From Candidatus Nitrosopumilus sp. (lineage in GTDB: Archaea; Thermoproteota; Nitrososphaeria; Nitrososphaerales; Nitrosopumilaceae), in assembly GCA_003331425.1 (NCBI GenBank), contig QOOS01000002.1:62001-126000 (forward strand): DNA of 64,000 nt, read 5' to 3'. The notes under the pieces are model-generated. The model worked only from the letters and a program-made list of their open reading frames with translations. It made no database searches and had not been told where the DNA came from. Each line of letters starts with the position of its first letter. Within the stretch, counting starts at the first letter, position 1. The translations under genes and the position numbers were made by a program. Below are positions 3,662 through 25,778 of the stretch, in pieces.

Positions 3662-4939
3662 ATGTCTAAATCTAGAAAATTATTTAGCGATTCCAAAAAA
3701 GTTACTCCATCAGGCGTAAATAGCCCTGTTAGATATTTTGATCCTTATCCATTTTTTACAAAAAAGGCTAATGGTGCATACATCTGGGATGAGGATAATA
3801 CTCGTTACATTGATTTTTGTAACGCATATGGTGCTTTGCTATTGGGACATCGTAGAAAAGAGATTCTGGATTCTGTAACTAAACAACTTTCAAAGGGAAC
3901 ACTGTATTGCACTCCTACTGCATCTGAAATCGAATTATCCAAATTGATTCTTGGCAATTTCCCTTCAATGGATAAAGTGAGATTAATGAATACTGGTGGT
4001 GAAGCTACAATGACTGCAATTAGATTAGCACGTGGTTATACAAAAAAGAAAAAAATTATTAAATTTGAAGGATGTTATCATGGTGCACATGATTCTGTAT
4101 TAGTTAAGGCTGGCTCTGGTTCTGCACATAATGGCATTTCTGTTTCTGATGGTGGATTGGATGAAGTTTCAAAGAATACTCTAGTTGTCGAGTATAACAA
4201 TATTGAATCCCTACAAAAAACAATTTCTAAAAATAAAGATATTGCTGGAGTAATTGTAGAACCAATTTTAGCTAACATGGGATTGATTTTACCTGAAAAG
4301 AATTTCCTTTCAGATTTGAGAAAAATCACTAAAGAAAATAATATTCCATTAATTTTTGATGAAGTGGTTACTGGTTTTAGAGTCTCTCCTGGTGGAGCAC
4401 AGGAACACTTTGGTATCAAACCTGATATCACTACTTTAGCTAAAGCTCTGAGTAATGGATTTACAATTTCAGCTGTAGGCGGTAAAAAAGAAATAATGAA
4501 CCTATTATCCCCTGGTGGAAAAGTTTACCAGGCAAGTACTTTTGCAGGTAATCCAATTTCTGTTAGTGCTGCAATCAGTTCTATTAAGACAATTAACAAA
4601 ATGAAAAATAAACTCTATTCAAAACTTGAAAAATTCAATTTACTATTTTCAACTGCCCTGGATGACATGGCTACTGATATGAAAATCCCTCACCAAATCA
4701 ATTTTACAGCCTCAATGTTTCAAATTTTCTTTACAAACAAGCCTGTAATTGACTCTAAAACATCTAAAAAAGCAGATGGCAAAAAATTCCAGAAATTATT
4801 TCGAACTCTGTTGAAAGAGGGTGTCTTTATTCCACCATCTCAATTTGAAGTTGTTTTCTTATCTGATGCTCATACTCAAAATGATCTAAACAAAACATTA
4901 GATGCATATCATAGTGCATTAAAGTCGGTGAAGAATTGA
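3662..4939 (+). CDS. hemL: Glutamate-1-semialdehyde 2,1-aminomutase
   Basis: A 425-residue class III aminotransferase, the usual size for GSA aminomutase. Visible features: NTGGEATMTAIRLARG (about 110-125, cofactor phosphate binding), IFDEVVTGFR (231-240) with the Asp that contacts the pyridine ring, and TLAKALSNGF with the PLP-binding Lys at 261. It makes 5-aminolevulinate from glutamate-1-semialdehyde, the product of HemA (encoded at about 21 kb on the other strand). First gene of the hemL-hemC-cobA-hemD run, 2 nt after the aquaporin, so it may be partly co-transcribed with the arsenic genes. Confidence 0.93.
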   Translation: MSKSRKLFSDSKKVTPSGVNSPVRYFDPYPFFTKKANGAYIWDEDNTRYIDFCNAYGALLLGHRRKEILDSVTKQLSKGTLYCTPTASEIELSKLILGNFPSMDKVRLMNTGGEATMTAIRLARGYTKKKKIIKFEGCYHGAHDSVLVKAGSGSAHNGISVSDGGLDEVSKNTLVVEYNNIESLQKTISKNKDIAGVIVEPILANMGLILPEKNFLSDLRKITKENNIPLIFDEVVTGFRVSPGGAQEHFGIKPDITTLAKALSNGFTISAVGGKKEIMNLLSPGGKVYQASTFAGNPISVSAAISSIKTINKMKNKLYSKLEKFNLLFSTALDDMATDMKIPHQINFTASMFQIFFTNKPVIDSKTSKKADGKKFQKLFRTLLKEGVFIPPSQFEVVFLSDAHTQNDLNKTLDAYHSALKSVKN

Positions 4940-5871
4940 AATACGTAGTTGGTGCAAGAGGCAGTAAATTATCTATGGCCCAAACAAATTGGGTTATTTC
5001 AGAATTAAAAAAAGTAAATTCTGATTGTGAATATGAAATTAAACCAATTACTACTAAAGGTGATACTGATACAAGACCTCTATTTACAATTGAACAAAAA
5101 GGAATTTTTGAAAAAGAAATTGACAAGGCAGTTGCAGCAAAAGAAATTGATTTTGCAGTACATAGTCTCAAAGATGTTCCTTCTGAATTAGCTGATAATT
5201 TAATAATTGCATCCATTCCAAAACGTGAAAAAGTTAATGACGTTTTTATTTCATCTGATGATTCATCTTTAGATAAAATAAAACCTGGTTCTGTAATTGG
5301 TACAAGTTCATTGCGTAGAGCTGTTCAGATTTCACGACAAAGATCCGATGTAACTGTTAAACCAATTAGAGGAAATATTGAGACTCGAATCAATAAAGCA
5401 TCTGGCGAAAACTATGATGCTATTGTACTTGCACAAGCAGGAATTTCTAGATTGGGAGTTGATGTCAATTTCACTCCTCTATCCGTAGATGATTTTTCAC
5501 CTTCTCCTGGTCAAGGTGCTATTGCAATAGTTGCAAGAACTGATGATGTTCAAACCATTGAAATGCTTAAAAAAATTGAAGATGCTGATTCTAGATTGGA
5601 AATTGAGGCTGAACGTGCACTGTCTGATTACATTGACTCTGGATGTAGATTTCCTTTAGGTGCTTACGCAAAATCTGACGGTAATGAGATGAATCTTACC
5701 GTATATGCTTTCTCAGTTGATGGTAAACAATCTCTACAAGTAACAAAATCTGGAGATAAAAATAATCCTAAATTATTGGGTAAACAGGTAGGAGAAGAAT
5801 TGCGTAGTAAAGGAATCAATGATCTTGCATTAAATTGGAGGGAAAAAGTGGAGGAATGGAATAAGACATGA
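4936..5871 (+). CDS. hemC: Hydroxymethylbilane synthase (porphobilinogen deaminase)
   Basis: 311 residues, the family's usual length. The N-terminal GARGSKLSMAQTNW, the catalytic Asp in HSLKDVP (D80), GTSSLRRAVQ (122-131) and the cofactor-attachment Cys in DSGCRFPLGA (C237) are all present. It joins four porphobilinogens into the linear tetrapyrrole, primed on a dipyrromethane bound to that Cys. The start is TTG at 4936, overlapping the hemL stop by 4 nt; no ATG fits the conserved N-terminus. Confidence 0.95.
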   Translation: MKYVVGARGSKLSMAQTNWVISELKKVNSDCEYEIKPITTKGDTDTRPLFTIEQKGIFEKEIDKAVAAKEIDFAVHSLKDVPSELADNLIIASIPKREKVNDVFISSDDSSLDKIKPGSVIGTSSLRRAVQISRQRSDVTVKPIRGNIETRINKASGENYDAIVLAQAGISRLGVDVNFTPLSVDDFSPSPGQGAIAIVARTDDVQTIEMLKKIEDADSRLEIEAERALSDYIDSGCRFPLGAYAKSDGNEMNLTVYAFSVDGKQSLQVTKSGDKNNPKLLGKQVGEELRSKGINDLALNWREKVEEWNKT

Positions 5872-6608
5872 CTGGAAAAGTGTATCTTGTTGGAGCCGGA
5901 CCTGGAGATAGTAAATTAATTACTATGAGGGCCGTTGAATTAATCCAAAAAGCTGATGTGGTTTTGTATGATAGATTAGTCAGCAAGAAAATTGTTTCCA
6001 TGATTCCTAAAACTGCAAAAAAAGTCTATGTTGGTCGTTCAGTAGGTGATGATACAAGCCATCAAAATGGCACCAATGATTTAATGGTTGAATATGCAAA
6101 ATCTACAAAACATGTTGTTAGACTAAAGGGTGGTGACCCAATTATTTTTGGACGTGGTGGAGAAGAAGCTGAATTTTTAAAAGAACATAAAGTAAAATAT
6201 GAAATTGTACCCGGAATTACATCTGGAATTGGTTCTGCAACATATGCAGGAATTCCATTAACTCATAGAAAATATGCTTCATCAGTTGTTTTTGTGACAG
6301 GTCATGAGGATCCTGAAAAGAAACAAGAAATTGTTAAATGGAAAAATTTAGCCAAATCTGTTGATACAATTGTAATTATGATGGGATTATCTAGAATTGA
6401 TGTAATTTGTAAGCAGCTGATAGCAGGTGGAATGGATAAAAAAACACCGGTTGCTGTAATCCAAAATGGAACCACTCCCCAACAAAAAATGATTAAAGGT
6501 AATGTGACCAATATTGCAAAAAAAGTTAAAGAAAATAAGATAATTCCACCTACAAATATCATTATTGGAAATGTAGTTGATTTGTCTGATGTTATTGGGT
6601 GGAAATAA
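5868..6608 (+). CDS. cobA: Uroporphyrinogen-III C-methyltransferase (SUMT)
   Basis: 246 residues of the tetrapyrrole methylase fold: the N-terminal VYLVGAGPGD loop, VVLYDRLVS (31-39), and LKGGDPIIFGRGGEE (86-100), the SAM/substrate motif of SUMT. It adds methyl groups at C2 and C7 of uroporphyrinogen III to give precorrin-2, the branch point to siroheme, cobalamin and, in this organism, probably heme. It is a single-domain CobA; the dehydrogenase partner is a separate gene at 21.9-22.6 kb. ATGA overlap with hemC. Confidence 0.93.
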   Translation: MTGKVYLVGAGPGDSKLITMRAVELIQKADVVLYDRLVSKKIVSMIPKTAKKVYVGRSVGDDTSHQNGTNDLMVEYAKSTKHVVRLKGGDPIIFGRGGEEAEFLKEHKVKYEIVPGITSGIGSATYAGIPLTHRKYASSVVFVTGHEDPEKKQEIVKWKNLAKSVDTIVIMMGLSRIDVICKQLIAGGMDKKTPVAVIQNGTTPQQKMIKGNVTNIAKKVKENKIIPPTNIIIGNVVDLSDVIGWK

Positions 6609-7405
6609 TGCTTAGTGGTAAAACTATTGCAATTACACGTTCACAAGATGACGCTACTGAATTTATTTCACTTGCACAAGATAATGATGCAACTCCTATT
6701 GCATTACCCACTATTGAATTAGTTAGTAAAGGCGAAAAAATTGTTGATGAATTTTTAGAATCTGTTGAAAAATATAATCCTGATTATTCTGTTTTTATGA
6801 GTTCAAAAGCTGTTAAACTGTTATTTGATACTGCAAAACAACTAGGTAAACTCGAAAAATTACAATTAGCAGTTGCAAATACTACGGTAATGTCTGTAGG
6901 ACCTAAAACTTCCCTTACTTTGGAGGCTGAAGGAATTAAAGTCAATCACCAACCAACAACTTATTCTTCAGTTGGTGTTGGGGAGGAATTCACTAAACTT
7001 AATGCAGTTGGCAAAAAAGTAATTGTTCCACGTAGTGGTGCATCTACTCCTTTTCTAAAAGAATTACTTTCCAAAATTGGAATTGATGTTTTAGAAATTC
7101 ATCTGTATGATGTTTGTGCATTTAGGGATACAACTCAATGGAATGGATTTAGAGAATTATTTTCTCAAAATAAAGTTGATGGTGTTGTATTCACTAGTGC
7201 ATCATCTGTTAGGGGCTTCTTTGAAATTATGTCTAAAGATTATTCTGAGGATGTACTTCTTGAAAACCTTGAAAAATTATCTGTGGTTTCTATTGGACCA
7301 TTCACTTCTGATGAATTAAAAAAATTTAAAGTCAAAAATTCTGTTGCAGAAGTTCATACTGTTGCAGGTGCATTTGATGAGATGAAAATTACTCTTTCAA
7401 CTTAA
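6608..7405 (+). CDS. hemD: Uroporphyrinogen-III synthase
   Basis: A 265-residue protein of the weakly conserved HemD family, which cyclises hydroxymethylbilane while inverting ring D. Visible family marks are GKTIAITRS at the N-terminus, VFMSSKAVKLLF (about 60-72), a VPRSGAS segment near 143 and VVFTSASSVRGFF in the second domain. I use ATG 6608 (TAATG overlap with cobA) rather than GTG 6599. Position at the end of hemL-hemC-cobA supports the call, because sequence conservation in this family is low. Confidence 0.88.
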   Translation: MLSGKTIAITRSQDDATEFISLAQDNDATPIALPTIELVSKGEKIVDEFLESVEKYNPDYSVFMSSKAVKLLFDTAKQLGKLEKLQLAVANTTVMSVGPKTSLTLEAEGIKVNHQPTTYSSVGVGEEFTKLNAVGKKVIVPRSGASTPFLKELLSKIGIDVLEIHLYDVCAFRDTTQWNGFRELFSQNKVDGVVFTSASSVRGFFEIMSKDYSEDVLLENLEKLSVVSIGPFTSDELKKFKVKNSVAEVHTVAGAFDEMKITLST

Positions 7406-7407
7406 AA

Positions 7408-7983
7408 TTACTTGAATTTTTTCTTAGCAAATTTTGAAAGGCCTTCAGTTTTTAATTTCTCTGATTCTTTCATAACTGAATTATGTTGATCTAGTTTATG
7501 TTGTTTTAATTTCTTTTTCAAATCTGCAAATTCGTTTGCAAGTATTTTCATTGCATATATTCCTGCATTTCCTGCTTTGTTTACTCCAACTGCTACAACT
7601 GGTGAACCTGATGGCATTTCAGTAATTGATAACAATGAGTCTAATCCTCCAAATGCTGAAAATTTAGCTGTATCTGTTTTTTTTGGATGTTTGTCATTAT
7701 ACACTAGAATTGGAACTCCGATAACTGGAATTGTTGTATGTGATGCAATCATTCCTGGTAGATGGGCAGCTCCTCCTGCACCTGCAATTATAATTTTTAA
7801 TCCTATTTTTTCAGCATGTTTTGCATATTCTTCTAATCGTGCAGGTGTTCTATGTGCTGAAACAATTTGGTCTTCGTGTTTGATTTCATATTCATCTAGA
7901 ATTTCTGCAGCTGCTTGCATAATTCTACTATCTGAACTAGAACCCATAATTATTCCAACTAGGGGCTTTTCAGAATATTTCAT
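7408..7983 (-). CDS. purE: 5-(carboxyamino)imidazole ribonucleotide mutase
   Basis: 191 residues. GSSSDS (14-19), SAHRTP (42-47) and GAGGAAHLPG (68-77) are the CAIR/NCAIR-binding motifs of PurE. The C-terminal 35 residues are lysine-rich and extend beyond the usual class I core of about 160. It isomerises N5-CAIR to CAIR in purine synthesis. Its usual partner purK is not adjacent. It is convergent with hemD, with 2 nt between the stops. Confidence 0.92.
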   Translation of the reverse strand: MKYSEKPLVGIIMGSSSDSRIMQAAAEILDEYEIKHEDQIVSAHRTPARLEEYAKHAEKIGLKIIIAGAGGAAHLPGMIASHTTIPVIGVPILVYNDKHPKKTDTAKFSAFGGLDSLLSITEMPSGSPVVAVGVNKAGNAGIYAMKILANEFADLKKKLKQHKLDQHNSVMKESEKLKTEGLSKFAKKKFK

Positions 7984-8008
7984 ATTACTACAAAAAACTA
8001 GAGAGTAA

Positions 8009-8116
8009 TTAAGAATTACATCTATTGATCCAATTTTTTACCTCTTGATTTTTTTTGTTGTCAATGTTTTCTTTATTGTTCTGTGGTGCGTATAGATCTC
8101 TTTTACTAAAATGAAT
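8009..8116 (-). CDS. Possible small ORF without standard start codon upstream of purE
   Basis: A 35-codon frame that reads like protein (HFSKRDLYAPQNNKEN..., ending WINRCNS) ends 25 nt before the purE start and points the same way. It has no ATG, GTG or TTG: in-frame TAA lies directly before ATT at 8114-8116, the only near-cognate start. It could be a real small gene with an odd start, a remnant, or chance. Nothing is recognised in it. Confidence 0.2.
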   Translation of the reverse strand: MHFSKRDLYAPQNNKENIDNKKNQEVKNWINRCNS

Positions 8117-8197
8117 TTAAGATTGAAATTTAGCTATAGCTATTTAGCTCTGCCTATTTTTCCTCATGTATTTATAATATAACGGAGTTATCATGTC

Positions 8198-9598
8198 ATG
8201 GCAACAGAAAATATTGACATTGATTATACAAAATATGATTTTAAAGACTCTACAGAAATGTACGTTCACCTTAGTAAAAAAGGACTTTCTAAAGAAACTG
8301 TAATTGAAATTAGTAAAATGAAAAACGAGCCACAATGGATGCTCGATTTTAGAATTAGATCTTATGAAGTCTTTATGGAAAAACCAATGCCAACTTGGGG
8401 TGGAGATCTTAGTGTTATTGATTTCCAAAATATTTACTATTACGCTAAAGCATCTGATAAAACTGAAAAGAATTGGGATGATGTTCCAGACAATGTCAAA
8501 AATACTTTTGATAAACTTGGAATTCCTGAAGCCGAAAAGAAATTTTTGGCAGGTGTTGGTGCACAATATGAATCTGAAGTCGTTTATCATAGTCTAAGAG
8601 AAGATTTAGCAAAACAAGGTGTTTTGTTTTTAGATACTGATCAAGCATTAATTGACCATCCTGAAATTTTCAAAAAATACTTTGGTAAAATTATTCCTCC
8701 AGAGGATAACAAATTTGCAGCACTAAACAGTGCAGTATGGAGTGGTGGTTCATTCATCTATGTCCCACCAGGTGTTCATATTGACATGCCTTTACAAGCA
8801 TACTTTAGAATTAATGCAGAAAATATTGGTCAATTTGAAAGAACTTTGATCATTGTTGATGAGGGTGCAGAAGTACACTACATTGAAGGTTGTACTGCTC
8901 CAGTTTATTCATCAGAATCTCTTCACTCTGCAGTTGTTGAACTAGTTGCACACAAAGATGCAAAATTAAGATATACTACAATTCAAAATTGGAGTTCTGA
9001 TGTTTACAATCTTGTAACAAAACGTGCTTATGCATACGAGGGAGCTACCGTTGAATGGATTGATGGAAATATTGGAAGTAAATTAACAATGAAATATCCT
9101 GGTGTTTATTTGATGGGCGAAAGAGCATACGGTGAAACCTTGTCTATTGCATTTGCAGGTAAAGGACAACATCAAGATACTGGAGCTAAAATGGTACATC
9201 TTGCACCAAACACAACTTCTAAAGTTACATCCAAATCTGTAAGCAGAGCCGATGGACGTTCAACTTACAGAGGAATGCTAAATGTAGCAAAAGGTGCTAC
9301 TAATGTGAAATCAACTGTCAGATGTGATGCTTTACTACTAGATGATACTTCAAAAACTGATACATATCCATACATGGTAATTGATCAAGAAGATGCAACA
9401 ATTACTCACGAAGCTACTGTTGGAAAAATTGGTGATGATCAAATTTTCTATCTTATGTCTAGAGGATTTAGTGAAGAAGATGCATTATCTCTAATTGTTA
9501 ATGGATTCATGGAGCCATTTACAAAAGAATTACCAATGGAATACGCAGTTGAACTAAACAGACTCATTAAATTAGAAATGGATGATTCTGTAGGATAA
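8198..9598 (+). CDS. sufB: Fe-S cluster assembly scaffold SufB
   Basis: A 466-residue SufB. The N-terminal helical part ([13 protein letters not shown], 41-53) and the beta-helix core with [22 protein letters not shown] are typical. Cys 232 in YIEGCTAP matches the sulfur-accepting Cys of E. coli SufB, and [10 protein letters not shown] and [12 protein letters not shown] carry the late Cys and the His-Glu pair. It forms the SufBC2D scaffold; sufC lies far away at 25.8-26.6 kb on the other strand. TATA-like TTTATAATATAA is 16-27 nt upstream. Confidence 0.95.
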
Positions 9599-9624
9599 AA
9601 TCTAAATTCACGTAATGGTCAATC

Positions 9625-11025
9625 ATGTCTCAAGAAATACTTTCAAAATTAAATACTACTCACATTGAAGAAATTTCTTCATCTAGAAATGAACCTGAAT
9701 GGCTAAAAGATTATAGAAAAAATTCATTATCTGTTTATGATAATTTGCCTCTAGAGACATCTCCATTATACAACAAATACACTGATGCCAAAAAAATGGA
9801 TCCTGATAAAGTATCTCTTTCTACAACTACTGCTGAAACAATTCCATCTTTTCTTCAAAAAAGATTGGGAGAGCTAGAAAATGAAATTTGTATTATTCAA
9901 ATTGGAACAAATATCCATAAAATCAATTTACCTGATGAATTAAAATCAAAAGGATTAGTAATCTCTTCAATTTCTGATGCAATTCAAAATAATTCTGAAT
10001 TGGTAAAAAAAGCATTAGAAGCCTCTAGTTCTGAAGAAGATAGATTTACTGCTTTGAATAATGCAGCATTTAACTCTGGAATTTTTATTCATATTCCTAG
10101 AAACTTTATCTTAGAAAAACCAATTTACTTTTTGACTTGTTTATCTGAGGATGGCCATTCTACAATTTCTAGAAATGTTATTTTTGCTGATGAAAGTAGT
10201 AAGGCTGCAATTGTTCAGGAATTGTATTCTCCAAAAATTGAAACACAACAGGCATACCTTGAATTAATGAATACGAACGTTGGTGATAATGCTCAATTAG
10301 ATGTCACTACTTTACAAATGTTAGATCAAAGTGCTGTTACATTTTCTACCAAACGAACTGATTTGGGTCAAGATGCAAAAGTAAATTGGTATTCTGGACT
10401 ATTTGGTTCCATGTTGTCTAGATACAAAATTGAGTACTTTCTTAATGGAACTGGCGCATCATCTAATGACTCTGAAGTTATTTTTGGAAATAATGAACAA
10501 TCATTTGATATTCAAACCAATGTAAATCATGAAAGTCCTGCTACTGAAGGAAGAGTAGTTGAAAAATCTATTCTTCGAAATAAATCTAAATCTCTTTTCA
10601 AAGGAATGATTCGAATTAAAGAAAATGCTTCTAAATCTAATTCTTTCTTGTCAGGTCGTTCAATTTTACTTGATAAAGATGCAAAATCAGATGCAATTCC
10701 TGGATTGGAAATTTTCACTAATGATGTTAAAGCAACTCACTCTGCATCTGTTGCACAAATAGATGAAGAACAAATTTTCTATCTAAAAACTAGATGTCTT
10801 AGTCATGAAGAAGCTGAAAGAACTATTGTTGAAGGTTTCTTAGAACCACTTTCAAGAAAAATGTCTTTCCAAGTTAGAGCATGGATTGCATATCTTATTG
10901 AATCAAAATGGGATAATCGTGAACTCAGTATAAATACTGATGAGGAACTAGCTAAGTTTGTTGAAATTGAAGAGACAAGATATGATGAAAATTCTGAAAT
11001 TGAACAACACTACAAGTATAGGTGA
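9625..11025 (+). CDS. sufD: Fe-S cluster assembly protein SufD
   Basis: 466 residues, a SufB paralogue with the same N-terminal segment (ISSSRNEPEWLKDYRKNS) and the C-terminal TKSFFKG-like core, here KSKSLFKGMIRIKENASKSN, but without SufB's EGCTAP cysteine. KATHSASVAQIDEEQIFYL near the C-terminus is the SufD counterpart of the SufB HEA segment. It pairs with SufB in the scaffold complex. It starts 27 nt after sufB, and the next gene begins 5 nt after its stop. Confidence 0.93.
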   Translation: MSQEILSKLNTTHIEEISSSRNEPEWLKDYRKNSLSVYDNLPLETSPLYNKYTDAKKMDPDKVSLSTTTAETIPSFLQKRLGELENEICIIQIGTNIHKINLPDELKSKGLVISSISDAIQNNSELVKKALEASSSEEDRFTALNNAAFNSGIFIHIPRNFILEKPIYFLTCLSEDGHSTISRNVIFADESSKAAIVQELYSPKIETQQAYLELMNTNVGDNAQLDVTTLQMLDQSAVTFSTKRTDLGQDAKVNWYSGLFGSMLSRYKIEYFLNGTGASSNDSEVIFGNNEQSFDIQTNVNHESPATEGRVVEKSILRNKSKSLFKGMIRIKENASKSNSFLSGRSILLDKDAKSDAIPGLEIFTNDVKATHSASVAQIDEEQIFYLKTRCLSHEEAERTIVEGFLEPLSRKMSFQVRAWIAYLIESKWDNRELSINTDEELAKFVEIEETRYDENSEIEQHYKYR

Positions 11026-15820: not shown

Positions 15821-16564
15821 TTGGCATCATTAGAAAAAATAGTAATTGAATTACGTCAAAAGAAAAAAGAAGCAACCAAACTAAAACAAAAAGCTGAAGA
15901 AGAACTTAAACAACTTCAATCTGCAGAAAAACGTTCTGCAACAGGTTTGCAAAAAATGATTAAAAAAATTGAATCTGAAAAAGAGGATGTTTCAGATGTT
16001 TCAGAAAATCTTACTAGAAAAAATGCTCAGGTAGAAAGTATTGAAAGATTAGTAGCAACTGCTGAAGAAAGAGTAAATACTGAAAAAGAAGCAATTGAGA
16101 GAACCGAACAAGAAATAGAATTTGCTGATACTCCTGAGGAAAAAAATAATGCTGAGGCTAGATTACGCTCATTAAATGATCATGTTCAAGAGTTAATTTC
16201 AGAAATAAAGAGCCGACAAAAAACACTGAAAAAAATTACTGGTGAAGTTACAAACTTTGATGATATTAAATCTAAAATTACCACACAAATAAAAAAACAA
16301 ACCAAATCAAAACCATCTCTTCGTAGCACAATTTCGTCAAGTCACAAAAATGCTTCAAAAGTTGTAAAAGAAATTGAAAGACGAACGAAATCTGAAGAAA
16401 GAATTACCAAGGCTTTGGATAATGCATCAAAAAAATTAAAAGAATATCTTGCAAAAAAGCGTGCAGCAGCTAAAAGAAAACCTGCAAAGAAAACAGCAGC
16501 TAAAAGAAAACCTGCAAAGAAAACAGCAGCTAAAAGAAAACCTGCAAAGAAAACACGTCGTTAA
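15821..16564 (+). CDS. Coiled-coil protein with histone-H1-like lysine tail
   Basis: 247 residues. Residues 1-150 are almost pure coiled coil (charged heptads such as QKKKEATKLKQKAEEELKQL). Residues 150-215 are basic and helical. The tail from about 215 is AAKRKPAKKT repeated three times, ending RR, encoded by three identical 30-bp units. Such KPAKK/AAKRKP tails occur in linker histone H1 and bacterial H1-like proteins, so DNA compaction is the best guess. The gene stands alone and starts at TTG; no domain name can be given. Confidence 0.7.
   Translation: MASLEKIVIELRQKKKEATKLKQKAEEELKQLQSAEKRSATGLQKMIKKIESEKEDVSDVSENLTRKNAQVESIERLVATAEERVNTEKEAIERTEQEIEFADTPEEKNNAEARLRSLNDHVQELISEIKSRQKTLKKITGEVTNFDDIKSKITTQIKKQTKSKPSLRSTISSSHKNASKVVKEIERRTKSEERITKALDNASKKLKEYLAKKRAAAKRKPAKKTAAKRKPAKKTAAKRKPAKKTRR
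16466..16555 (+). repeat. Three perfect 30-bp tandem repeats encoding AAKRKPAKKT
   Basis: Units at 16466-16495, 16496-16525 and 16526-16555 are identical at every base and keep the reading frame. Identity at wobble positions means recent duplication or continual turnover, so copy number may vary between strains. Confidence 0.9.
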
Positions 16565-19324: not shown

Positions 19325-19632
19325 CCATAATCGACATATCTATCATATCTTTTTTCGATTTCTTTATTCTCTCCAGAAATAATTTTTTCATATTCTTGCT
19401 TTTTTCTAGAATCTATGTACTTGTTGATTGCCTCAAATTCTTCATTTTCTGGAAATGATTCAAAGACTGGTTCAATCATTTTTAGATATTCTAAAGTTTT
19501 CTCCCTGAATTCTTCTACTGTTGGTTTTCTTATTCCTTGCATTCTAAACCAAATTGCTGTCCAACTTGCCCCTACAACATGTGGCAATAAATCAAAGGCC
19601 CTTTCTATTTCAAAACGTTCATCATTTCTCAT
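19321..19632 (-). CDS. Small helical protein next to hemB, unknown
   Basis: 103 residues, mainly helical, acidic at the C-terminal half (EKIISGENKEIEKRYDRYV). The N-terminal ERAFDLLPHVVGASWTAIWF is hydrophobic and may be a binding surface. No family recognised. It follows hemB with a 4-nt overlap (ATGA), so it belongs to the hem run, but nothing in the sequence shows a role in tetrapyrrole synthesis. Confidence 0.6.
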   Translation of the reverse strand: MRNDERFEIERAFDLLPHVVGASWTAIWFRMQGIRKPTVEEFREKTLEYLKMIEPVFESFPENEEFEAINKYIDSRKKQEYEKIISGENKEIEKRYDRYVDYG

Positions 19633-20609
19633 GATTCTTGAAGAAATCTTGAGGCTGATTTTGCAAAATATGTAACTATCATGTCTGCTCCTGCTCTTTT
19701 AATGGAATGAAGAATTTCTAATGTGATGTCTTTTTCATTTACGTATCCTAATTGTGATGCTGCTTTAACTAATGCATATTCTCCTGATACACTATAAGCT
19801 GATACTGGGACATTATACTTTCGTCTAGTCTCTGCAATTAAATCCAAATATGATAATGCTGGTTTTATCATTACCATGTCTACTCCCTCCTCAATGTCTG
19901 TTTCTACTTCCATCATTGCTTCCCTCGCATTTGTAAATGGAACTTGGTATGTTTTTCTATCTCCAAATTTTGGTGCACATTCTGCAGCATCTCTAAAAGG
20001 CGAATAAAAGTTTGAACGATGTTTTGCTGAATGTGACATTATTGAGACGTCTGTAAATCCTTTTTCATCTAATGCTTTTCTGATTGCAGCAACTTGACCA
20101 TCCATCATTGCTGATGGTGAAACTGTATCTACTCCTGCTTTAGCTTGACTAACAGCAATTTTTGTAAGTGTATCTAAACTAGTATCATTGTCTATTTTAT
20201 CTCCATGAATAATTCCGCAATGACCTGTAGATGTAAATTGACACAAACAAACATCTGCCATAATTACTATTTTATCTCCAAATTCTTTTCTAATTTGGAT
20301 AATTGCCTTTTGAACAATTCCTGCATCATCAAAAGCTGAACTACCTGCTTCATCTTTTTGTGTAGGAATTCCAAATAACATTATTGCTGGAATTCCTAAA
20401 TCTATAATTTCTTTAACTTCTTGATTTACTTCTTCTAACGGTAATCTTTCAATTTCTGACATTGATTCTACTTTAATTCTACTTTTAAGATCCTCTTGGA
20501 CAAATACTGGACAGATGAAATCTTTTGGAGTTAATGTTGTTTCTTGAACTAATTCTCTCATTTTTTCTGAAATTCTTAATCTTCTAAGACGTTTAGTTGG
20601 AAATGACAT
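19629..20609 (-). CDS. hemB: Porphobilinogen synthase (5-aminolevulinate dehydratase)
   Basis: 326 residues. The two Schiff-base lysines are K196 (SAKHRSNF) and K249 (MVMIKPALSYLD). The active-site metal loop is ADVCLCQFTSTGHCG with C121, C123 and C131, the zinc-dependent form of the enzyme. It condenses two 5-aminolevulinates to porphobilinogen. It follows hemA by 31 nt. Confidence 0.95.
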   Translation of the reverse strand: MSFPTKRLRRLRISEKMRELVQETTLTPKDFICPVFVQEDLKSRIKVESMSEIERLPLEEVNQEVKEIIDLGIPAIMLFGIPTQKDEAGSSAFDDAGIVQKAIIQIRKEFGDKIVIMADVCLCQFTSTGHCGIIHGDKIDNDTSLDTLTKIAVSQAKAGVDTVSPSAMMDGQVAAIRKALDEKGFTDVSIMSHSAKHRSNFYSPFRDAAECAPKFGDRKTYQVPFTNAREAMMEVETDIEEGVDMVMIKPALSYLDLIAETRRKYNVPVSAYSVSGEYALVKAASQLGYVNEKDITLEILHSIKRAGADMIVTYFAKSASRFLQES

Positions 20610-20640: not shown

Positions 20641-21912
20641 CTAGTCAGCCTGATTTTGTTTTTTATAGTCAAAAAGTCTAGTTGCTAATTCTAATACATC
20701 TGGTTGCCCTTGTTCTGATGCTTTTCTAATATTGTTCATTGGAGTTGATACTATGCTTTCTACCACTGCTTTTGTTAATTCCTCAATAATTTTGACTTTC
20801 TTCTCATCTTTTTCATCTAACATTTGTAGTGCTTTTTGTAGTTCTTTTTCTCTGAGATTCTCTATGTTTTTGAATACGTCTGTTACAAGTGGTTCTGCAT
20901 CTAGTCTTTTCATTGAAGCCTCTAATACTGAGATTTCCTCTCTAATTATATTTTCAACGGTTTTTACCTTGTTTAATCTGGCATTCATGTTCTTTTCAAC
21001 CATTTCTGCAATTTGATCTAAATTCATTAATTTGACTCCTTTGATAGTAGCTACTTTTTCATCAACTGTTCTTGGATTTGATAAATCTAATATCATCATT
21101 CCATTGTTTTTATTTTTCATTGCATCTGTAATTCTATCTTGAGTGACAAGAAAATATGGTGCTGTTGTTGCTACAAATATTATATCGTATTTATCAAATC
21201 CTGAAAGTATTTCTTCAAATTTAATTGGATTGCCACCCATAGTTTCACAAAATGTTTCTGATCTACCTATTGTTCTACTTGTAACTTTAAACGCATATCC
21301 TCTTCTTTGTAATGATTTTGCAACAAGGGTGGACACTTCTCCTGTTCCAATTAATAAAATCTCTTTTGTTTTTAATTCATCAATATTTTCTTCTGCAAGT
21401 TTTACTGCCATAGAACCAACTGATATCCCGCCTTTTCCAATTCCACTAGAATTTCTAATTCTTGTACCCATTCTGATTGCTTTGTCAAATAATGTGTTAA
21501 GATGTTGACCTGATGCTTTTGATTCTCTTGCAGATGTAATTGAATTTTTTATTTGGCCTAAGATTTGTTCTTCCCCTAATACCATTGAATCTAAGCCTGA
21601 TGTTAGTTTTAAGAGATGATGAAGAGCATCGTGATTCTCTACAAATTCTATATTTTCTTCAAATGTTTCTTCATCTAATCCTGCTATACTTGCCCATGTT
21701 TTTTTGATTTTATCTGTATTGTCTGTTTTTGATTTACCAAATAATTCGATTCTGTTACATGTTTGAATAATTACACATTCATCTAATTCTGAATGTTCCT
21801 TGAATTGTTGATATGCCGTATCTATATCTTTTATTGTAAATTTTTCTAAAATATGAATTGGTGAATTACGAAATGTTACACGTGCATTAATGATATTTTG
21901 ATTTATTTCCAT
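20641..21912 (-). CDS. hemA: Glutamyl-tRNA reductase
   Basis: 423 residues, typical length. The catalytic Cys is C52 in IIQTCNRIELFG; LTSGLDSMVLGEEQILGQIK is the signature; LLIGTGEVSTLVAKSL is the NADPH-binding loop. It reduces Glu-tRNA(Glu) to glutamate-1-semialdehyde, the substrate of HemL, which is encoded 16 kb away in the other hem cluster. Its start overlaps the end of the precorrin-2 dehydrogenase gene by 10 nt. Confidence 0.95.
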   Translation of the reverse strand: MEINQNIINARVTFRNSPIHILEKFTIKDIDTAYQQFKEHSELDECVIIQTCNRIELFGKSKTDNTDKIKKTWASIAGLDEETFEENIEFVENHDALHHLLKLTSGLDSMVLGEEQILGQIKNSITSARESKASGQHLNTLFDKAIRMGTRIRNSSGIGKGGISVGSMAVKLAEENIDELKTKEILLIGTGEVSTLVAKSLQRRGYAFKVTSRTIGRSETFCETMGGNPIKFEEILSGFDKYDIIFVATTAPYFLVTQDRITDAMKNKNNGMMILDLSNPRTVDEKVATIKGVKLMNLDQIAEMVEKNMNARLNKVKTVENIIREEISVLEASMKRLDAEPLVTDVFKNIENLREKELQKALQMLDEKDEKKVKIIEELTKAVVESIVSTPMNNIRKASEQGQPDVLELATRLFDYKKQNQAD

Positions 21913-22556
21913 TTTTTAATTATCTCTATAGCCCGCTTTTCAGCTTTTTTTACCTGATTGTCTTTTATTAACTGATCAATCTGATTATCATTCATAATGT
22001 TGTTCAAACACTGTTTTCGTTCAAATTGGGTAGGAATGATCTCTTTGGCAAGTGTTCGTGAGATTTTCTGAATCTTAATTTGAGCAATATCCTCTTTCAA
22101 AATTACTTTTTTTAGTGCTTTTTCAGATTTTGATTTGATCTTTTTAGACATTGCAGGACTCCTGCCGCCCGTAAAAATTGCAATCTGTATTGTTTTTTCA
22201 AAATCTATTATTGCTGCATTTGAAAAATCACTGTCATCTGGATTATCTGAACTATATACTATGATTTTTCTGTTTTTTGCATATGTGATTATTTTTTGAT
22301 TAATTTTTTTGTCATTTGTGGTTGTAATGATTATATCTGGTTTTAATTCTGAAATAAATTTTAAATTTTCAATTTTTTGTTTTTTTAATTTAATTTTTTT
22401 TGTCTTAACCCAATTTGAAATTTGTTCATTTATGGAATCACTAATTACTGAAATTTCACATTTCTCATTTAATATCGATTTAATTCTTTTTTCTGCTTCA
22501 TTTCCTCCACCTATTATGATGATTTTTTTACCTTCTAGATTTAGATTAATTATCAT
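21903..22556 (-). CDS. Precorrin-2 dehydrogenase / sirohydrochlorin ferrochelatase-like
   Basis: 217 residues from ATG 22556 (TTG 22565 possible). IIIIGGGNEAEKRI is the NAD-binding loop, DIIITTTNDKKIN matches the CysG N-terminal/Met8 domain, and SNAAIIDFEKTIQIAIFTGGRSPAMSKKIK is the family's substrate region. It oxidises precorrin-2 to sirohydrochlorin; iron insertion may also be done here or by another enzyme. With CobA (5.9 kb) it makes siroheme. First gene of the hemA-hemB run and divergent from the siroheme decarboxylase. Confidence 0.85.
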   Translation of the reverse strand: MIINLNLEGKKIIIIGGGNEAEKRIKSILNEKCEISVISDSINEQISNWVKTKKIKLKKQKIENLKFISELKPDIIITTTNDKKINQKIITYAKNRKIIVYSSDNPDDSDFSNAAIIDFEKTIQIAIFTGGRSPAMSKKIKSKSEKALKKVILKEDIAQIKIQKISRTLAKEIIPTQFERKQCLNNIMNDNQIDQLIKDNQVKKAEKRAIEIIKKWK

Positions 22557-22625
22557 CGATCCCAAACACCCCAGTTTCTATTTATGTATTAAAACCAATT
22601 TTTGAAATACTAGCTACATTTTTAA

Positions 22626-23672
22626 TTGAATTGCCAGGTAATTCACGTATTGTCTTCTTTAGGTGAATCTGATAAGGAACTTCTAAATGAAATTCAATGG
22701 ACTTTTCCTCTAGTTACTAGACCATTTGATGCCATTGCTAAAAAATTTGATACTACTCCTGAAATTATTAAAGAAAAATTAAACCATCTGAAAGAAATTG
22801 GTGTTTTAAGACAACTTAGTGCAATATTTGATACACGAAAACTAGGATATACTAGTTCATTAGTTGCTATGGAAATTGAACACGATAAGCTAGATTATGT
22901 AGCCTCCCAAATTAATCGTCATCCGGGAGTTAGCCATAACTATGAACGTGATCATCAATTCAATCTTTGGTTTACTTTGGCAGTTCCTCCAGGAGCTGAT
23001 TTGAAAATAGAACTTGAAAAATTCAATTCATTGAAAGGAATTAAAAAAGTTAGAATGCTTCCAACATTACAATTATTCAAAATTGGTGTTAAACTTGACA
23101 TGGTTGATGATAAAAAACATGATGTTGCACCAACTGAAGAAAAAAAAGAAATTAAAAATATTAAATTTGATCCAACTGAACAGGATAAAGATTTCATCCG
23201 TGAATTACAAAAGGATATGGAAATAATTGATGAACCGTTTGTAAAAGCAGCAAATAATCTTGGAATGACTGAAGATGAATTATTTGCAAAAATGAAACAC
23301 TATGAGAGTATTGGTGTTTTACGAAGATTTGCAGCAATCCTTAGACATCGTCAAGTTGGATTTACTGCAAATGGTATGATAGTTTGGAAGGTTCCTGAAG
23401 ATAGAATTACTTCAGTTGGTGAAACATTGGGTTCATTTCCTCAAGTTAGTCATTGTTATGAGCGTCCTACTTATGATGATTGGCCATATAACGTATTTTC
23501 AATGATTCATTGTAAAACACAAGATGAGGCAAATGATGTTGCTAAAACAATTCAAAATCAAATTAATGTTGATGAATTTAGAATTTTATTTAGTTCACGT
23601 GAATTCAAAAAAACTCGTGTTGAATATTTTGTAGAAAATTCTTTTAGTTTGGAAGACGCAGCAACTTCTTAA
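22626..23672 (+). CDS. ahbAB: Siroheme decarboxylase, AhbA-AhbB fusion
   Basis: 348 residues made of two homologous AsnC/Lrp-like halves (about 14-160 and 184-335). Each has a winged helix (FPLVTRPFDAIAKKF; DEPFVKAANNLG) and the siroheme-decarboxylase signature: HPGVSHNYERDHQFNLWF (99-116) in the first and FPQVSHCYER...YNVFS (271-292) in the second. In AhbA/AhbB and NirD/NirL these halves are separate chains that together remove two acetate carboxyls from siroheme. Often annotated as an Lrp regulator. Divergent from siroheme synthesis genes. The start is uncertain: TTG 22626 or TTG 22650. Confidence 0.85.
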   Translation: MNCQVIHVLSSLGESDKELLNEIQWTFPLVTRPFDAIAKKFDTTPEIIKEKLNHLKEIGVLRQLSAIFDTRKLGYTSSLVAMEIEHDKLDYVASQINRHPGVSHNYERDHQFNLWFTLAVPPGADLKIELEKFNSLKGIKKVRMLPTLQLFKIGVKLDMVDDKKHDVAPTEEKKEIKNIKFDPTEQDKDFIRELQKDMEIIDEPFVKAANNLGMTEDELFAKMKHYESIGVLRRFAAILRHRQVGFTANGMIVWKVPEDRITSVGETLGSFPQVSHCYERPTYDDWPYNVFSMIHCKTQDEANDVAKTIQNQINVDEFRILFSSREFKKTRVEYFVENSFSLEDAATS

Positions 23673-24007
23673 ACTTCATTTTTATCGTGCCCTACAACAT
23701 GTATGTTGCAAAAATATTGATCATTCATGTTACAATAGTATAGAGAATCTTCTCCACACTCTTTACACGGAGGTTTTTCATCTTCTTTTGATAATTTTGT
23801 ATGGTAAATTTTTGTTCTACTTGTAACTGATGAGTCTTTGTAAATTCGTGTTAAATTTGAATAATATTCTAATTCTTCTGGGTTTAGAATTTGTTTTTTA
23901 TTAATTTTTTTAATAATTATCTCCCATTTTTTATAATCACCAATTTTGGCTATTTTCATTCTTTCGATTATTTCAAGAGTTTTTTCTAAGTTAATTGGTT
24001 TTTTCAT
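23669..24007 (-). CDS. Small protein with C-terminal B-box-like zinc motif
   Basis: 112 residues. The C-terminal third has CKEC (81-84), C92, C100, H103 and H107 (YFCNIHVVGHD), a cross-brace-like arrangement as in B-box or AN1 zinc fingers. The first 75 residues are basic and helical. No function assigned. Tail-to-tail 4-nt overlap with ahbAB, 7 nt after the aldo/keto reductase. Confidence 0.6.
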   Translation of the reverse strand: MKKPINLEKTLEIIERMKIAKIGDYKKWEIIIKKINKKQILNPEELEYYSNLTRIYKDSSVTSRTKIYHTKLSKEDEKPPCKECGEDSLYYCNMNDQYFCNIHVVGHDKNEV

Positions 24008-24014
24008 TTAACAT

Positions 24015-25013
24015 TTAGCTTGTTTGTGGGGTTGCTTTTAATTCATAAGATGGCCATGTGTTGTATAGTTCTTCAATTTCTTTCATGTCTGATGCTGAGA
24101 TGTATCCACCTTTAGTCATTTCAACATAATTTACAATCTCTTCTTCACTTACCACTGTTGGAAAAACTGATGCAAATCCTTTCTTTGACATGATGAATTT
24201 CATTGATAGTTCTGTAATTGTTAAATCATTTCTTTCTGCAATTGGTTTTAGTTTTTCAACTTTTTCTAATGATGCTTTTATCCATTCTCCTTTTCTCACT
24301 GATCTGTGATCTTTTTCATCAATTTTAGTTTCCGCATTTACTTTTCCTGTAAGTATACCTGATGCTTCTGGAACTCTAACAAGAATTCCCACATCCTTTT
24401 CTTGTGCTTTTTTCATTAATTCATTACCTGGAGTTTGTTCTAAAATATTGTAAACTGTTTGAACTGCACTAACGTTAGGTCTATCCATTGCTTCTATACC
24501 TTCTTGTGTCCATCCAATTGCAGGACCTAATGCTACTTGATATGTTCTAATTGATTTATCCTCAATAAAACTATCTAGTAAATTGAAAATGGAATCATCT
24601 CTAATGTGATTTAATTTTGGATTGTGTGGCCCATACATGTCTAAATGATCAGTTTGTAATCTTTCTAAACTATTTCTTAATGCTTTTCTAGTAAAATCTT
24701 CATCAAATTTTTGAGGTAATTCTTTATGACCAATTTGTTCAACTTCTGAGAAATCATATCCGTACTTTGTAGATAGTACAACTTCGTCTCTCATATCTTT
24801 GAAAACTTCGCCAATTAGCCTCTCACTTTTCCCTTTTCCATACATATCTCCAGTCTCAAAAAAGTTAATTCCCAAATCATATGCTTTTTTTAACATTCTT
24901 TTTGCTTCATCTTCTTCAATTTTCTTACCCCACCAATCTAATGCAATTGACCATGCACCAAATCCTAATTCTGATACTTTGATGTCGGTTTTTCCAAGTT
25001 TATTGTAATTCAA
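24015..25013 (-). CDS. Aldo/keto reductase
   Basis: 332 residues, TIM-barrel AKR family. GFGAWSIAL and FFETGDMYGKGKSERLIGE (51-69) are typical, with Y58, K83 (STKYGY) and H130 (YGPHNPK) of the catalytic tetrad. The usual catalytic Asp (family DTAxxYG) is Glu here (E53 in ETGDMYG), a conservative but unusual change. NAD(P)H-dependent carbonyl reduction is the expected activity; substrate unknown. It lies between two heme-related genes without an obvious link. Confidence 0.85.
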   Translation of the reverse strand: MNYNKLGKTDIKVSELGFGAWSIALDWWGKKIEEDEAKRMLKKAYDLGINFFETGDMYGKGKSERLIGEVFKDMRDEVVLSTKYGYDFSEVEQIGHKELPQKFDEDFTRKALRNSLERLQTDHLDMYGPHNPKLNHIRDDSIFNLLDSFIEDKSIRTYQVALGPAIGWTQEGIEAMDRPNVSAVQTVYNILEQTPGNELMKKAQEKDVGILVRVPEASGILTGKVNAETKIDEKDHRSVRKGEWIKASLEKVEKLKPIAERNDLTITELSMKFIMSKKGFASVFPTVVSEEEIVNYVEMTKGGYISASDMKEIEELYNTWPSYELKATPQTS

Positions 25014-25103
25014 TTTTATCTCCTTTTGATTTCATCTTTCATTTGAAAATTCATCATTTATGTTTATCCAAGATTTGCATCTATTGGTAATTTGTTTTAA
25101 TGT

Positions 25104-25778
25104 TTAGCCTAAACTTGTAATTAATGGAATAATGTCTTTTTTTACGCACACAATCATTGGAATATCATTTTTTACATATGTTGAAACTTGTGTTTCTCTT
25201 AAATCCATGATCAAATCTTGAAAATCTCTGATATCATCTACTTCAAATGCTAACATGAAATCTTCGTCATGTATTCCAAATGAATAAGTTGTATTGAGTA
25301 TTATTTGTGGATATTTTTTACTAACTGTAATATGTTCATCCATAATTTCTTGACGCTTCTCTTTTGGTAAAAGGTACCATTCTCTTGTTTTTGTAAATGG
25401 ATAAACAATCACGTGTTTTTTTGGATTATTTCCTGTCATGAAACCTAATGCTTTTTGATCTTTTACATATAGTGACGGTCTTGTACATGACAAATATGTC
25501 ATTGATGAAATAATATATTTTCCAAATACTGTTTTGTATAATTTTTCAATTACAATTTGAATTTCTTCTACTGTTTTAGCTGCAAACCAAAACAAAAAGT
25601 CTGCATCATCTCTAAGACCTAAATTTGAATATGATCTAAACATTATTTTTGAATTACTGATAATGTTTTCTACTTCTTTTGCAGATTCCTCTTTTGCTAA
25701 ATCTGCCATCCATCTCCATTTAGGATCAACTTTGAAAAATGAAAAATTAAAAAAATATTGTTCACTATTTTCTGACAT
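25104..25778 (-). CDS. Chlorite-dismutase-family heme protein, HemQ/ChdC-like
   Basis: 224 residues, the length of the HemQ (coproheme decarboxylase) branch. VYPFTKTREWYLLPKEKRQ (125-143) and the MDEHITVSKKYPQI segment (146-159) fit the family: by comparison with Firmicute HemQ, Y126 is the candidate catalytic Tyr and H149 the proximal heme ligand. TTYSFGIHDEDFMLAFE follows. Members convert iron-coproporphyrin III to heme b with peroxide, or detoxify chlorite. Next to siroheme decarboxylase and hem genes, the decarboxylase role is favoured; this is inference. Confidence 0.78.
   Translation of the reverse strand: MSENSEQYFFNFSFFKVDPKWRWMADLAKEESAKEVENIISNSKIMFRSYSNLGLRDDADFLFWFAAKTVEEIQIVIEKLYKTVFGKYIISSMTYLSCTRPSLYVKDQKALGFMTGNNPKKHVIVYPFTKTREWYLLPKEKRQEIMDEHITVSKKYPQIILNTTYSFGIHDEDFMLAFEVDDIRDFQDLIMDLRETQVSTYVKNDIPMIVCVKKDIIPLITSLG

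Follow-up and report, generated by a model that had tools for sequence, protein, structure and literature searches.

In the siroheme-dependent route to heme, siroheme is decarboxylated by AhbA and AhbB, and the two late steps fall to the radical S-adenosylmethionine (SAM) enzymes AhbC and AhbD, of which AhbC takes two acetates off didecarboxysiroheme (PMC12505453). AhbA and AhbB are commonly fused in archaea (PMC11237513, PMC3942049), and in haloarchaea the Ahb pathway is known to be combined with a last step of the coproheme decarboxylase (ChdC, or HemQ) type (PMC5746218, PMC8305020); deletion of pitA in Haloferax volcanii impairs aerobic growth, and heme rescues the mutant (PMC5746218). A heme cluster like the one considered here was described earlier in Nitrosopumilus maritimus, and both nirJ-type genes were reported absent from that archaeon, from Sulfolobus acidocaldarius and from Haloquadratum walsbyi (Storbeck 2010; PMC3004389), a gap restated in a 2014 genomes paper (PMC4010524). 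The function of the chlorite dismutase (Cld)-like protein of ammonia oxidisers was called unknown in a 2023 review (PMC10432482), and in the literature collection searched we found no paper joining Nitrosopumilus with coproheme. Here we analyse a window of 64,000 nucleotides from Candidatus Nitrosopumilus sp. (assembly GCA_003331425.1, contig QOOS01000002.1, positions 62,001 to 126,000; coordinates below are those of the window unless a locus is named), in which genes for an AhbA-AhbB fusion, an aldo/keto reductase (AKR) and a Cld-family protein lie close together. This archaeon has lost both of the usual late-pathway radical SAM enzymes, AhbC and AhbD, while keeping a siroheme-based heme cluster. 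From its gene content and its matches to Nitrosopumilus genes, we take it to be an ammonia oxidiser.

The order of genes around this cluster is hemB, hemA, SirC-like, AhbA-AhbB fusion, a small open reading frame (ORF), AKR, Cld-family gene and sufC. The fusion (22626–23672, plus strand), a predicted siroheme decarboxylase, had been recognized as two halves in one chain in an earlier note on this DNA, and both halves do score above curated cut-offs: residues 16–159 match AhbA (NF040708, 272.7 bits against a cut-off of 140) and residues 191–334 match AhbB (NF040707, 253.9 bits against 125). The HXYXR motif of the solved AhbAB (PMC4145669) is found in each half, as H104-Y106-R108 and H276-Y278-R280 (motif codons at 22935 and 23451). 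The claim that siroheme genes lie within 5 kb stands for the SirC-like precorrin-2 dehydrogenase of the SirC/CysG N-terminal type (21903–22565, minus strand; PF13241; TIGR01470, 86 bits), but not for hemA, an early general tetrapyrrole gene; SUMT/cobA (uroporphyrinogen III methyltransferase; PF00590, 181 bits), which is also siroheme-specific, lies at 5868–6608 on the plus strand.

All 1,235,315 bases of the source genome (1.24 Mb, 96.6% complete) were read, in stretches, and neither AhbC nor a full AhbD was present. The best match to the AhbD model (TIGR04545), at 38.2 bits, was the tetraether lipid synthase Tes, the best match to the AhbC model (TIGR04546), at 29.7 bits, was a Tes protein, and BLAST searches of the whole genome with AhbC and AhbD of related archaea gave only weak radical SAM similarity, of 47 bits or less. 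The genome likewise has no match to URO-D and thus no HemE, and no ferrochelatase (HemH), the sole match being a CbiX-type chelatase encoded outside the cluster; it does encode the heme users COX1, CtaA and cytochrome b. The earlier note had drawn a route from siroheme through didecarboxysiroheme to coproheme in which only AhbD was replaced. As drawn, this route does not hold, because its second arrow is left without an enzyme: the absence of AhbC too had been overlooked.

The lack of AhbC is a property of the whole order of ammonia oxidisers. Of 160 genomes sampled from the class, 117 score above the cut-off for AhbA, all belonging to four families (f1, f2, f3 and f5); Cld was present in 116 of these, and full-length AhbC in none, three having partial matches to the radical SAM domain (74–127 bits). 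Many of these genomes are single contigs with a completeness of 99%, so missing sequence cannot explain the absence. Class members that have AhbC are mostly without Cld and below the cut-off for AhbA. In the phylum sample, AhbA and Cld were found in all members of family f31, which we take to be the Sulfolobaceae, with AhbC in most of them and absent from three (G218, G230 and G366). The control genome of an aerobic bacterium, Deinobacterium chartae, matched AhbA (E ≤ 1e-15), Cld and DUF1802 and gave no match to AhbC (at 1e-20), HemE or HemH, which hints at the same genotype there; its AhbA score may fall below the cut-off. Two genomes of 0.8 Mb in the family of the window archaeon (G124 and G146, genus g15) lack AhbAB and match Cld only weakly, at 62 and 49 bits, and these reduced genomes are possibly those of heme-dependent symbionts. 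Searches of plasmids gave only heme d1-type AhbAB relatives and a single plasmid of Paenibacillus polymyxa (L261), on which fused AhbAB directly follows two radical SAM genes; the plasmid genes are probably a complete mobile AhbABCD cluster and serve here just as a contrast.

The Cld-family protein (25104–25778, minus strand; PF06778, 199.5 bits) is most likely a ChdC doing the last step, as judged from its sequence and its predicted structure. Its best matches in the PDB are coproheme decarboxylases (E 7e-30), and its AlphaFold model (predicted local distance difference test score 87.8) fits best the coproheme-bound ChdC of Corynebacterium diphtheriae, CdChdC (6xuc; TM 0.89, root-mean-square deviation 2.4), as against TM values of 0.79–0.86 for the listed chlorite dismutases. 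Y126 and H149, to which the earlier note had drawn attention, are both present and are invariant in 31 of 31 archaeal homologues; in CdChdC (PMC9953210), the counterparts of Y126, K130 and W134 are Y135, R139 and W143, and that of H149 is the proximal His. Taken with the absence of AhbD, these nearest solved relatives by sequence give good support to the suggestion of a HemQ-like enzyme in its place. The strongest contextual evidence comes from comparison with other archaea. Where AhbAB is not nearby (G096 at locus L068, G304, L181, L182, L196, L217 and others), Cld is clustered with hemE and often hemH, plus hemA, hemB, hemC and hemL, in the order hemA-hemC-hemB-Cld-hemL-hemE-hemH in archaea some of which are of the same order or phylum; such clusters represent a coproporphyrin-dependent heme route. 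In a quick, unrooted tree, the Cld proteins of ammonia oxidisers form one clade (support 99) on the side of these hemE/hemH-linked relatives, a fully supported branch parts them from the Sulfolobaceae type, and the topology implies, as far as such a tree allows, that AhbAB joined with ChdC at least twice.

We therefore favour a siroheme-based route that passes through AhbAB and a step not catalysed by AhbC and ends with the Cld-family ChdC, and we regard this overall scheme as probable. Uroporphyrinogen III would be converted to precorrin-2 by SUMT, to sirohydrochlorin by SirC and to siroheme by the CbiX-type chelatase, and the AhbAB fusion would yield 12,18-didecarboxysiroheme. In an order without AhbC, removal of the ring A and B acetates must fall to another, oxygen-tolerant activity, giving iron-coproporphyrin III. 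The Cld-family protein would then act as an H2O2-dependent coproheme decarboxylase producing heme b, with H149 as the proximal ligand, Y126 as the radical-forming residue, and the propionates anchored by W134 and K130. The AKR encoded between AhbAB and Cld might act alone, act with ChdC or clear a product.

By gene linkage, this AKR (24015–25013, minus strand; PF00248, 165.8 bits) is the best candidate for the AhbC gap. No other uncharacterised gene is tied to the heme cluster throughout the order: the AKR adjoins Cld in 29 of 29 Cld loci of ammonia oxidisers, and in L061, where Cld has moved off, it adjoins AhbAB. The window AKR has no other close relative within its genome. Genes of the same AKR subfamily immediately precede Cld in two Rubrobacter loci, in an actinobacterial metagenome-assembled genome (MAG) grouping with them and in two Chloroflexi MAGs. 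These bacterial Cld-linked AKRs group with the archaeal ones and share about 40% identity with the window AKR (266–280 bits, against 160–183 bits for the other AKRs found), and in one Chloroflexi locus (L238) the genes for AKR (7935–8960), Cld (8977–9669) and AhbAB (9670–10734) follow one another with intergenic gaps of 16 and 0 bases, an apparent operon. The bacterial gene order is reversed relative to the archaeal one, so the linkage of AKR and Cld has been kept through rearrangement. Of the AKR catalytic tetrad, Y58, K83 and H130 are kept and Glu53 takes the place of the usual Asp; among solved structures, enzymes of the AKR11 family are nearest. The protein may contribute to removal of the acetates, or may reduce a reactive product of that reaction. 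The boldest reading, which we put forward tentatively and as possible rather than probable, is that ammonia-oxidising archaea and some aerobic bacteria use an AhbC-free siroheme-to-heme route in which the ring A and B acetates are removed not by radical SAM chemistry but by means of the Cld-linked AKR, together with ChdC and, in some cases, DUF1802.

Two further neighbours were considered and set aside. DUF1802 (PF08819) is found on the same strand as Cld and beside it in each of the 66 genomes of the class in which it occurs (e.g. G109, C1:2244408–2244923), with a copy broken by stops in G113; it is absent from the genus of the window and so cannot be required as a general substitute for AhbC, and an apparent DUF1802-AKR fusion in L111 is a reading-frame artefact. 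A FAD protein that adjoins AhbAB in Sulfolobaceae was not seen near the heme genes of this genome.

Several points weigh against the scheme that we favour. CdChdC contacts the propionates through R139, W143 and R208; K130 and W134 are kept in the window protein, but the position of R208 is occupied by S199, an objection softened by the finding of S199 in many hemE/hemH-linked Cld relatives. The distal His118 of actinobacterial ChdC is Q108 here and is missing from every one of the 18 ammonia oxidisers compared, while in alignment A3 it is kept in all but one (L241) of 21 other relatives. It has also been lost in six Sulfolobaceae, which leaves both archaeal groups that pair Cld with AhbAB without it; the residue is likewise not conserved in the ChdC of Firmicutes, and it therefore defines a subtype and not the family. 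The protein does not reach the cut-off of NF042928 (HemQ_actino; 147.5 against 235 bits), a model of the actinobacterial type. The AKR offers no clear chemistry for acetate removal and could be accessory, and in Sulfolobaceae it lies beside neither Cld nor AhbAB. Finally, what we show is gene content, residues, linkage and the absence of AhbC, AhbD, HemE and HemH; all the enzyme activities, and the role of siroheme as heme precursor in this group, we infer.

A second source for the missing activity would be a divergent radical SAM protein encoded elsewhere in the genome. The set comprises CofG, CofH, BioB, MiaB-type, MqnC-/MqnE-like, Tes, Elp3, TYW1, RlmN-like, QueE and KamA-like proteins and two without an assigned role, and several such proteins whose role is not clear, among them those of L075 (293 aa) and L083 (577 aa, B12-type), give this explanation some room; none, however, resembles AhbC or AhbD beyond the weak domain similarity seen with BLAST and none is located with the heme genes, and we consider it doubtful. 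It is also conceivable that ChdC alone does both missing steps, its peroxide chemistry stripping the two acetates of didecarboxysiroheme before the propionates are decarboxylated. AhbC and AhbD are jointly absent and Cld is kept both in ammonia oxidisers and in the three AhbC-free Sulfolobaceae, the 2010 survey listed the same joint absence in the three archaea named above, and in both archaeal groups the distal site is unlike that of an ordinary ChdC. Yet didecarboxysiroheme is not a substrate of any known ChdC, the linkage of the AKR would be left without explanation, and the Cld clades of the two groups are separate, so that a new activity common to both would need either an ancient origin or two origins; we judge this to be unlikely.

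Known chlorite dismutases have a distal Arg 13 residues past the proximal His (H170/R183). The window protein has N162 at that spacing, the site being taken from known chlorite dismutases and not from a direct alignment; R173 mutants of chlorite dismutase were among the PDB entries matched. This bears on whether the Cld-family protein is instead a true chlorite dismutase, or a nitrogen-oxide or peroxide enzyme, perhaps tied to O2 production in ammonia-oxidising archaea, that lies in the heme cluster by chance. The protein is annotated as 'chlorite dismutase-like', the 2023 review mentions it beside oxygen production (PMC10432482), and its fold is one common to chlorite dismutases. Sequence and fold nevertheless both favour coproheme decarboxylases, neither the catalytic Tyr nor the catalytic Trp varies, Asn stands where the chlorite dismutase Arg would be expected, the gene has a fixed association with AhbAB, the AKR gene and hem genes, and the heme pathway would otherwise be without its last enzyme as well, all of which makes such a function quite improbable. 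Cultured ammonia-oxidising archaea grow in mineral medium, which weighs against heme scavenging. That heme is scavenged or comes from an unrelated route, with AhbAB serving another purpose, might account for the two missing late enzymes noted in 2010 and 2014 (PMC3004389, PMC4010524), but is very improbable given that a heme-requiring oxidase and cytochrome b are encoded with no HemE/HemH route, that AhbAB is kept in the 117 class-sample genomes and that the authors of the 2014 paper thought heme uptake implausible (PMC4010524).

The remaining heme genes of the window are those of the early pathway. Near the fusion on the minus strand are hemB (porphobilinogen synthase, 19629–20609; PF00490, 454 bits) and hemA (glutamyl-tRNA reductase, 20641–21912; TIGR01035, 345 bits). 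A second run, hemL-hemC-SUMT-hemD, occupies 3662–7405 on the plus strand and begins with hemL (glutamate-1-semialdehyde aminomutase, 3662–4939; PF00202, 253.7 bits; named from context and sequence), followed by hemC (porphobilinogen deaminase, 4936–5871; PF01379, 241 bits) and, after SUMT, hemD (uroporphyrinogen III synthase, 6599–7405; PF02602, 167 bits). The small ORF beside the fusion (23669–24007, minus strand) matches no Pfam family and is conserved only near the genus of the window, with 61–70% identity in a few Nitrosopumilaceae loci. At 15821–16564, an ORF ends in a tail of repeated KPAKKTAAKR units, and its lysine-rich product is possibly a DNA-binding protein.

To call this mixture of routes unusual, as the earlier note did, is too strong, since fused AhbAB is common and the haloarchaeal precedent exists. 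A hybrid route has precedents as a kind; the new elements are that it is applied to this group, that AhbC is lost as well and that an AKR is linked to it, together with the placing of the Cld-like protein in the heme cluster and its match to coproheme decarboxylases that include those of archaeal hemE-hemH clusters. The gap shrinks to the AhbC reaction alone, for which a specific gene is put forward as candidate, and it is this unfilled step, across an order of abundant microbes, that is of main interest. If the proposal is confirmed, a reaction so far seen only with oxygen-sensitive radical SAM enzymes would gain a catalyst that withstands oxygen, and one suggested oxygen source would drop out of discussions of archaeal oxygen production.

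Compared with the AhbABCD pathway of Methanosarcina barkeri and Desulfovibrio, the archaeon shares the early genes, SUMT, SirC and AhbAB with HXYXR motifs, but lacks the radical SAM enzymes of both final steps. Haloferax volcanii, with Ahb and PitA/ChdC (PMC5746218), is alike in joining a siroheme-based pathway to a Cld-family protein for the aerobic last step; it differs in having AhbC and AhbD and a Cld fused to an ABM domain, whereas here both Ahb enzymes are absent and Cld is stand-alone. In Sulfolobus acidocaldarius (Storbeck 2010), AhbAB and Cld are likewise present and AhbC and AhbD absent, but its Cld is of the other clade and no AKR lies beside it (L093), nor does one occur at the AhbAB loci in its relatives. 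The coproporphyrin-dependent pathway of Actinobacteria and Firmicutes differs in its HemE and coproporphyrin ferrochelatase, neither of which is encoded here, and in the distal His of the actinobacterial enzyme, lost here; it is alike in its ChdC/HemQ-type last enzyme, with the same catalytic Tyr, Trp and proximal His.

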